From the NCBI RefSeq assembly GCF_033100135.1, contig NZ_CP136920.1:2785001-2849000 (forward strand): a stretch of 64,000 nucleotides of DNA, given 5' to 3'. The stretch is from Rubellicoccus peritrichatus. Its GTDB lineage: Bacteria; Verrucomicrobiota; Verrucomicrobiia; Opitutales; Cerasicoccaceae. Made by a program: the position numbers and the translations under genes. Shown here piece by piece: positions 60,286-62,139 of this stretch. Below the pieces are notes generated by a model. That model saw nothing but the letters and a program-made list of their open reading frames with translations. It was not told where the DNA came from and made no database searches. How positions within the stretch are numbered: position 1 is the stretch's first letter; the number at the start of each line of letters is the position of its first letter.

Positions 60286-62139
60286 ATGAAGAACAAAAGA
60301 TGGATTTGCATTTCAATGGCGATGTTGTTTCTGCCCTGGCTGAAGGGGGCAGCGCAGGATATGGCGGTGGTTGAGGTAGACTTACTGACGCGCCAACTAC
60401 TGGGTGGCAGCTCTGAACTCGACCGTAGTAAATATATCAATGTGCACAGTCATTATAGCGCCTCCGCGCTGACCGAGGAAGACCTTGAGCAATTGAAAGA
60501 ATTGAATGTGGGGTTTGGGCGCTCATTCGATGGCCCCTTTGCAAGCCACAAAAACGGAACCAACTATCCGGACACAGCAACGATCCAGGCCCAATCAGAG
60601 GAAGTGTTAACTGCTGCAGAATCGAATCCTCTATTTCCCTATCACACGACTCGGAGAATCATGACCAACAACGTTAATGATGCATTCAATATGCAGGATG
60701 ATCCGAAGGAAATGGCTCGGTATGCTGTCGATATCCTGGAATACCATTACAATGACGACACACGCCCGGACTTTTATTCACCTCTTTCCATTCCCTTCGT
60801 GGCTGCTGGTAAATTTGGTGAAGACCAGGCGATGGTCCGTGAACGCATGACAGCGCTTGTTGCGGAAATTGGAAAAGAGATCGACCAGCGCGAATTATCT
60901 ACCCAGGTTATTGGCTACACCAGCGCGTGGCCTATGATGCATTACTGGGATTTCCAGCACTGGAGGGAACGTATGCAAATGTTTATGGACACTGCGGGAC
61001 CACACATTGATGGCATCTGCTTTTTGATGCTGGACGCCACACATATGAAAGAGCGTGATAGTCGCCGCAGTGGTAGTCGAGTTGAAGCCCTGATGGATCT
61101 GATCGAGACGTATGGGGCGATAAAATGGGGCGAGCCGAAACCACATGCGATCAGTGAATACGGAGATGTCTCTCACGGCTGGCCACATGGTGATCGCTAT
61201 ACACCGGCGCGTTCTTCTGCAGAATTAAACTCTTACAATCATTTCCTTTTCTCCTTACTTGGACGGCAGGATCGGCTCTCGATCGCCGTCCCATTTCTTA
61301 CGACTAAAAGCCCTTGGTTTTATCAACAGCCCAGAAATAACTGGCAGCCGTTTTCTGCCGACCTCTGGCGTCCCGACCCGGAAAGTATTGTTGATGACAA
61401 ACCGACCCGATTTCTCGAAACAGAGAAGATGGAATTTTACCGTCTGTGGCGCGACGTCAAGGGACACCGAGCATTAATCAACTGCACTGATCCAGACATC
61501 TCTACCTATGCGTTCACCGATGAAACTGAAGCCTATATCTGCTTGAATAACTTTGAAGATAAGCAGAGAGAAGTCGCACTGTCCTTTAAAGGCAAGCTAC
61601 CCAACATTGATAGGGTAGAATTGAAACGCATGTTTGTCCCAAAGCAACAAGCTGTCATCTATACCAAAACGGAGATCGATCAATTGCCACAGACTCTGAT
61701 GATGGAGCCACATGAAACAATCATCATACACATCAGCTATGCCGCGACGCTGGTGCCTACTGCTTATATCAAGACTCAAAACTTTTACAGCAAGGACTTC
61801 CTGTTACCGATTACTGCTGACAAGCCGTTGGAGTTTTTCATCCAAACCACTGACGTGAATGCGGCTAGTAGCGGCATCTTGCGCATCAGCTTTGCTCGTG
61901 AGCATAACCTGAGCAAGAAACCGCAACTCAAAGTCAATGAACATGAGATTGATTTTCCCGATGATTGGTTGGGTGGTGATCAGGCTAATAAGAAAGGCGG
62001 TTTTTTCGGCGCTGTAGCAGTTCCAATTCCTACAGGTATTCTTAAAAAGGACAACAAAGTCTCTCTCACTTTCCCTGACAGCGGCGGACGTGTCAGCACC
62101 GTCGTGTTGGAGGCTGATATTCCAGTCAGTAATTTCTGA
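60286..62139 (+). CDS. Secreted GH86-like paralogue lacking the predicted acid/base Glu
   Basis: A 617-residue exported protein (signal cleavage near KGAAQD, about residue 24). It is a paralogue of the preceding gene: YHYNDDTRPDFYSPLSIPFV aligns with [20 protein letters not shown]. At the position of the acid/base pair Asn-Glu it has S168-I169, so the catalytic acid is absent. The nucleophile Glu291 remains in HAISEYGD. C-terminal beta domains end in VSLTFPDSGG, like VTVSFPDSNE of the first copy. It may be a binding protein or an enzyme with a changed mechanism. Its beta-barrel pattern and length are otherwise normal for the family. Confidence 0.82.
   Translation: MKNKRWICISMAMLFLPWLKGAAQDMAVVEVDLLTRQLLGGSSELDRSKYINVHSHYSASALTEEDLEQLKELNVGFGRSFDGPFASHKNGTNYPDTATIQAQSEEVLTAAESNPLFPYHTTRRIMTNNVNDAFNMQDDPKEMARYAVDILEYHYNDDTRPDFYSPLSIPFVAAGKFGEDQAMVRERMTALVAEIGKEIDQRELSTQVIGYTSAWPMMHYWDFQHWRERMQMFMDTAGPHIDGICFLMLDATHMKERDSRRSGSRVEALMDLIETYGAIKWGEPKPHAISEYGDVSHGWPHGDRYTPARSSAELNSYNHFLFSLLGRQDRLSIAVPFLTTKSPWFYQQPRNNWQPFSADLWRPDPESIVDDKPTRFLETEKMEFYRLWRDVKGHRALINCTDPDISTYAFTDETEAYICLNNFEDKQREVALSFKGKLPNIDRVELKRMFVPKQQAVIYTKTEIDQLPQTLMMEPHETIIIHISYAATLVPTAYIKTQNFYSKDFLLPITADKPLEFFIQTTDVNAASSGILRISFAREHNLSKKPQLKVNEHEIDFPDDWLGGDQANKKGGFFGAVAVPIPTGILKKDNKVSLTFPDSGGRVSTVVLEADIPVSNF

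Follow-up and report, generated by a model that had tools for sequence, protein, structure and literature searches.

Within a 64,000-nucleotide stretch of the Rubellicoccus peritrichatus genome (hereafter, the window), two GH86-like genes lie next to each other, and the second of them, P0002, has Ser-Ile at the place of the acid/base Glu that is intact in the first, P0001. This raises the question of whether P0002 still encodes a GH86 enzyme and, if it does not, what the protein may be kept for. The two genes are as follows.

60286..62139, + strand: pseudo-GH86 gene P0002 (617 aa), an intact open reading frame for an altered GH86 barrel and two beta-sandwich domains
57947..59944, + strand: adjacent GH86 gene P0001, of another subgroup, with intact INEP, HTYD and VVSEHGG motifs; alternative start at 57866

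The best solved relative of P0002 was the porphyranase BpGH86A (PDB 4aw7), which matched residues 28-611 with an E value of 1.5e-96 (phmmer). Both P0001 and P0002 scored above cut-off for PF18206 and PF18040, the beta-sandwich domains of porphyranases (in P0002, 75.9 bits with a cut-off of 27 and 84.8 bits with a cut-off of 26.2, respectively), and no NCBIfam family passed its cut-off for either protein. The fold of P0002 is accordingly a predicted one, assigned by homology to GH86. Its N-terminus was judged by eye to be hydrophobic and signal-peptide-like, and the protein is probably exported. In the window genome (5.8 Mb, one contig), nine places matched P0002. The earlier note had treated the two adjacent genes as paralogues that align well; they are not close paralogues, as P0001 and P0002 shared 22% identity over 508 columns and the closest intact paralogue of P0002 (45%) was located elsewhere in the genome, at C1:5003500-5005266.

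Forty-eight GH86-like sequences from the loci were aligned with 4aw7 and five plasmid relatives, giving 54 rows. Six of these form the clade described below, whose members are the window gene and the genes of G088 (Opitutales MAG JANQXM010000023), G089 (Pontiellaceae B12227), G163, G164 and G173; the other 48 rows lie outside it. The identity of the other members to P0002 was 63-66%. The positions of P0002 on which the argument turns are listed here.

60778..60792, + strand: strand-4 motif Ser165-Pro-Leu-Ser168-Ile169, which is Glu-Pro-x-Asn-Glu (acid/base) in other GH86
61024..61035, + strand: strand-6 motif Leu247-Met-Leu249-Asp250, which is His-x-Tyr in other GH86
61156..61158, + strand: nucleophile Glu291, kept in 6/6 members and 48/48 others
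60940..60942, + strand: His219, fixed in 6/6 members, Glu in 11/11 near relatives
61078..61080, + strand: Arg265, fixed in 6/6 members, Asn in 11/11 near relatives
60526..60531, + strand: Phe81, which is BpGH86A F77 by alignment and is kept, and Asp82, fixed in 6/6 members

Strand 4 of 4aw7 (FFEPLNEPFV) paired without gaps with that of P0002 (FYSPLSIPFV), and the same columns paired without gaps against the intact paralogues of P0002 too. S168-I169 is contained in the P0002 segment TRPDFYSPLSIP, and Glu291 sits in AISEYGD. The codons were TCC for S168 (60787-60789) and ATT for I169 (60790-60792); since ATT differs from GAA or GAG by at least two base changes, a single sequencing error is insufficient to account for I169. 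The Ser168-Ile169-type state recurred in five other genomes. The replacement of the acid/base by S168-I169 with retention of Glu291, as claimed in the earlier note, was thus confirmed against 4aw7, the intact paralogues, the codons and the five genomes. The note was right that the acid/base is gone but drew the loss too narrowly: HLYD in strand 6 of 4aw7 paired with LMLD of P0002, and Glu165 was replaced by Ser, His247 by Leu and Tyr249 by Leu.

Both the strand-4 Asn-Glu and the strand-6 His-x-Tyr were present in 42 of the 48 locus sequences, and six had neither. Outside the clade, N168 and E169 were kept in all 47 rows with a letter there, H247 and Y249 in 48/48 and E165 in 46/47; the six members had S at position 168, I or L at 169, L or I at 247, L or M at 249 and S or A at 165. 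R79 (47/47), D242 (47/48) and D271 (48/48) were also kept. At the column of Asp82, each of the 10 near relatives having a letter there had Trp or Asn, and no newly conserved Asp or Glu was found in the motif segments of strand 4 (residues 164-172), strand 5 (209-222) or strand 6 (245-254). The alignment of 54 rows demonstrates that none of the six members found has the residue predicted to be the acid/base Glu, the Asn preceding it, Glu165, or the His and Tyr of strand 6, so that a loss first noticed in one gene proved to be conserved in a clade together with that of further pocket residues. Since the acid/base Asn-Glu is absent, P0002 is GH86 by descent but does not appear to be a conventional GH86 enzyme.

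Members were found in 4 of 345 sampled genomes of the class of G089 and in 2 of 384 of the window's own class, one of the latter being the window's own genome; in these class scans, scoring covered the top few candidates of each genome. When a 371-genome sample of the order of G088 was searched with P0002, a member was found in G088 alone. G088 and G736 have identical coordinates and were counted as a single genome. In a tree built on 24 of the 54 rows with the eight altered columns excluded, the six members were monophyletic (100/100) and sister to the intact L002 and L020 (99/95), which are GH86 of two of the six member genomes. The clade branched from within the intact BpGH86A-like enzymes; its stem was 0.64 long and its tips 0.12-0.30. 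The tree and alignment clearly place P0002 as a descendant of BpGH86A-type GH86 enzymes. The dN/dS values (NG86) were about 0.20 and 0.10 in two member pairs, the window/G088 pair being saturated, and about 0.12, 0.10, 0.14 and 0.23 in four pairs of active GH86. In the two measurable pairs, the clade has been under purifying selection after the loss. Between G173 and G163, the member was 80% identical as compared to 87-97% for four neighbours, i.e. it evolved faster; among the active GH86 pairs of these two genomes, one was similar to the member (81.5%) and another was slower (88.8%). The loss is real, has a single origin on this tree and is maintained by selection.

Viral contigs scanned for extra relatives gave 65 pattern matches and no relatives. 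Eight plasmid records matched P0002, the best place of each being below 60% identity, and the five placed on the tree all fell among intact rows. In the plasmid relative L067, the frame is partial and lacks the strand-4 motif, so that the acid/base column is not covered.

By sequence, P0002 resembles BpGH86A and the agarase BuGH86 (PDB 5ta0 and 5ta1) in its barrel and two sandwich domains, its nucleophile Glu, a Phe at the place of F77 and a Ser/Thr at that of S326, but it lacks the acid/base Glu, the preceding Asn, Glu165, His247, Tyr249 and the -3 His/Gln. According to PMC5849685, F77 and S326 of BpGH86A form subsite -2 for 6-sulfated L-galactose, T82 and M396 are the agarase counterparts, and H114/Q138 assists at subsite -3. 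In the alignment, where residues were mapped by matching letters and the mapping is inexact, the PDB offset being 6 for F77 and H114 and 7 for S326, the clade had Phe81 for F77 and Thr339 for S326, and the -3 His (H114 position) was lost in 6/6 members; the His129 position, corresponding to BpGH86A H114 and BuGH86 Q138, is Asn in P0002. Since Phe81 and Thr339 are kept and the -3 His is lost, the -2 site looks porphyran-like and the -1 site appears to be dismantled. That Trp344 is the -3 Trp mentioned in PMC5849685 is a guess.

P0001 carries INEP with the acid/base at Glu220 in the 665-aa numbering, as had been proposed, and a lipobox-like AGGC was seen by eye in its start region. The earlier note had suggested that P0002 could be the inactive partner of an adjacent active enzyme. 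A P0001-like gene lay less than 10 kb from the member in three of the six genomes (the window, G089 with 61% and G163 with 65%), but the two were apart in the other three: they were ~180 kb from each other in G173 (66%) and on separate contigs in G164 (60%), while the G088 gene with the P0001 motif type was likewise on a contig other than that of the member. Furthermore, G048 has a P0001-like gene (54% to P0001) but no member. The view that the P0001-type GH86 is a dedicated partner of the pseudo-GH86 is thus weakly supported. A promoter and terminator scan bearing on co-transcription of P0001 and P0002 gave no more sites than shuffled sequences (3 versus 6.2 and 3 versus 4.0). In G173 (C1:886054-887909), the P0001-like gene is apparently split over two frames, with matches to 50-226 and 227-663 meeting at one base. 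Two small PEP-CTERM proteins are encoded on opposite strands before the GH86 pair (window positions 56022-56687 and 56975-57664).

A stronger and more consistent companion than the adjacent GH86 is a Gfo/Idh/MocA oxidoreductase, an orthologue of which was present in 6/6 member genomes and at the member's own locus in 5/6. It adjoined the member in G163, G164 and G173 and was 1.7 kb off in G088 and ~4.7 kb off in G089; in the window genome, the orthologue (65%) was at C1:693029-694324, ~2.15 Mb from P0002, next to a gene for an AraC-type regulator and one for a 1572-aa protein resembling polysaccharide lyases of family 8 (PL8; L111:4268-8986, G000:C1, ~0.69 Mb). Matches of at least 65% to the oxidoreductase were confined to the same 4 of 345 and 2 of 384 genomes, and none occurred in the other sampled genomes (341/341 and 382/382; 723 of 729), where the next best were 50% and 52%; the cut between 65% and 52% was chosen post hoc, and the two samples may overlap in genomes. 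The naive co-occurrence probability of 4.9e-15 is not a real probability because the genomes are related. Among eight genomes with GH86 matches but without a member, seven had an oxidoreductase match of at most 39% or none at the limit, and one, G1143, had a match of 71%. G1143 lies outside both samples, and none of its five P0002 matches is a member; every member genome found therefore has the oxidoreductase, and the reverse is not true. In G163, G173 and G1143, the gene immediately upstream of the oxidoreductase was ThuA. The solved relatives of the oxidoreductase include the dehydrogenases 8tdf and 8tdh and DgpA, the last of which is a glycoside 3-oxidase. Its N-termini looked Tat-signal-like by eye, and the G1143 copy scored 20.6 for Pfam TAT_signal, the cut-off being 22.7.

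Since the acid catalyst and most of the catalytic pocket have been lost and selection nevertheless keeps the protein, together with its oxidoreductase companion, P0002 probably binds or handles red-algal sugars without the usual cutting. The most likely reading, which we hold with about as much doubt as confidence, is that P0002 is a periplasmic pseudo-porphyranase that binds galactan fragments for an oxidative pathway. Galactan hydrolysis by the GH86 double-displacement route would have been given up, porphyran- or agar-type oligosaccharides would still be bound via what is conserved of the cleft (Phe81, Thr339 and Trp344), and P0002 would hold or present them in the periplasm to the oxidoreductase and to the surrounding sulfatases and exo-glycosidases. 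Pseudo-glycosidases include chitinase-like lectins and Klotho proteins. These likewise have a glycosidase fold minus a catalytic Glu and are kept by selection, but P0002 belongs to another family, comes from a bacterium, is associated with a sugar oxidoreductase and is a putative binder known from its sequence.

Several observations count against this reading. The loss of the -3 His in 6/6 members weakens the case for retained binding, and the newly fixed His219, Arg265 and Asp82 with the kept Glu291 exceed the needs of a plain binder. The oxidoreductase partnership is countered by G1143, which has no member, and by the distance between the two genes in the window genome; the faster evolution of the member than of its neighbours in G173/G163 also counts against the reading. 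The earlier note had left the choice between a binding protein and a different catalytic acid. The clade-wide pocket losses, as read from the alignment, fit a binding protein or a different chemistry and speak against an ordinary hydrolase.

Ranked second, and possible rather than probable, is a re-purposed enzyme whose pocket has been rebuilt around Glu291 with the new His219, Arg265 and Asp82 for a different reaction. It could, for instance, abstract the C2 proton and carry out an elimination on a C3-oxidised galactan supplied by the co-occurring oxidoreductase, with little acid help to the leaving group needed. The new fixed polar residues and the retention of Glu291 are consistent with this, as are the strict companionship of the oxidoreductase, ThuA beside it in the three genomes named above and DgpA among its solved relatives. 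To our knowledge, the known OGE/CGE eliminases have no sequence relation to P0002. Five PDB sequences matched P0002, and no eliminase was among them. As described in PMC10628242, 3-keto-glycoside beta-eliminases are TIM barrels with a His and an Mn2+ site whose leaving groups may depart without acid help; OGE/CGE are like P0002 in that a TIM barrel is encoded with a Gfo/Idh/MocA oxidoreductase, and the strand-5 His may be alike, but the known eliminases have the Mn2+ site. His219, which would be the counterpart of their His, is fixed in the clade, but an AlphaFold2 model (built from 5 rows; mean pLDDT 55.7, catalytic barrel mostly below 50) was too poor for use, and any placing of His219 or the other new residues at the barrel mouth would be conjecture. 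That the known eliminases are metal enzymes unrelated in sequence, and that G1143 has the oxidoreductase without a member, also speak against a re-purposed enzyme. We consider it quite unlikely that a GH86 barrel rebuilt around its old nucleophile acts on C3-oxidised red-algal galactan from a dedicated periplasmic oxidoreductase, which would be an oxidative, non-hydrolytic cleavage of porphyran or agar by a protein of classical glycoside hydrolase descent.

It is rather unlikely that P0002 is still a GH86 hydrolase in which a carboxylate of another loop, or the substrate itself, stands in for the acid/base. The conservation of Glu291, Arg79 and the cleft sequence in general and the newly fixed Asp82 would agree with such a hydrolase, but Asn168, Glu165, His247 and Tyr249 are gone besides the acid/base, and the three motif segments offer no new carboxylate. 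Asp82 is on strand 1, and strand 1 is not beside strand 4 in this barrel type. Gene decay or a sequence error, to which the loss itself and the faster evolution of the member in G173/G163 might point, is extremely improbable and was rejected, since six genomes share the same losses in open frames, dN/dS is low in two pairs, and the short tips behind a long stem make up a conserved clade.

The preferred reading of a binding protein for an oxidative pathway is set among genes for sugar breakdown. The member loci contain sulfatase, alpha-L-fucosidase-type (GH29), GH95, beta-helix and esterase genes, and at C1:5.00-5.03 Mb of the window genome, sulfatases, an aldehyde dehydrogenase and an enolase-family gene occur among GH86 genes, a content that fits red-algal galactan breakdown. 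At L060:10593-12758 (G000:C1, ~5.02 Mb), between the aldehyde dehydrogenase and sulfatase/GH86 genes, a 721-aa protein combines an enolase-family (MR_MLE) part with a GH43-matching stretch (residues 419-530); it is possibly a fusion in the anhydro-galactose pathway. Beyond the window, at L058:16732-18747 (G000:C1:2854731-2856746), a distant GH86-like gene with FSPLNEPDA, DLHIYS and IITEFG and no Pfam match follows a sodium:solute symporter gene. In the related isolate Pontiella agarivorans, GH86 is among the commonest GH families, according to PMC10880615.

Our searches of the open-licence PMC literature returned neither a catalytically dead GH86 clade nor inactive GH86 or pseudo-glycosidases in such clusters. 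If GH86 genes are simply counted, the number of agarases and porphyranases that are active can be overestimated. If the binding reading is true, P0002 would offer a ready-made porphyran-type lectin and, in the galactan gene clusters of Verrucomicrobiota-type bacteria, a capture protein. If the new chemistry is true, the companionship with the oxidoreductase would allow an oxidative route into red-algal galactan to be tested directly.
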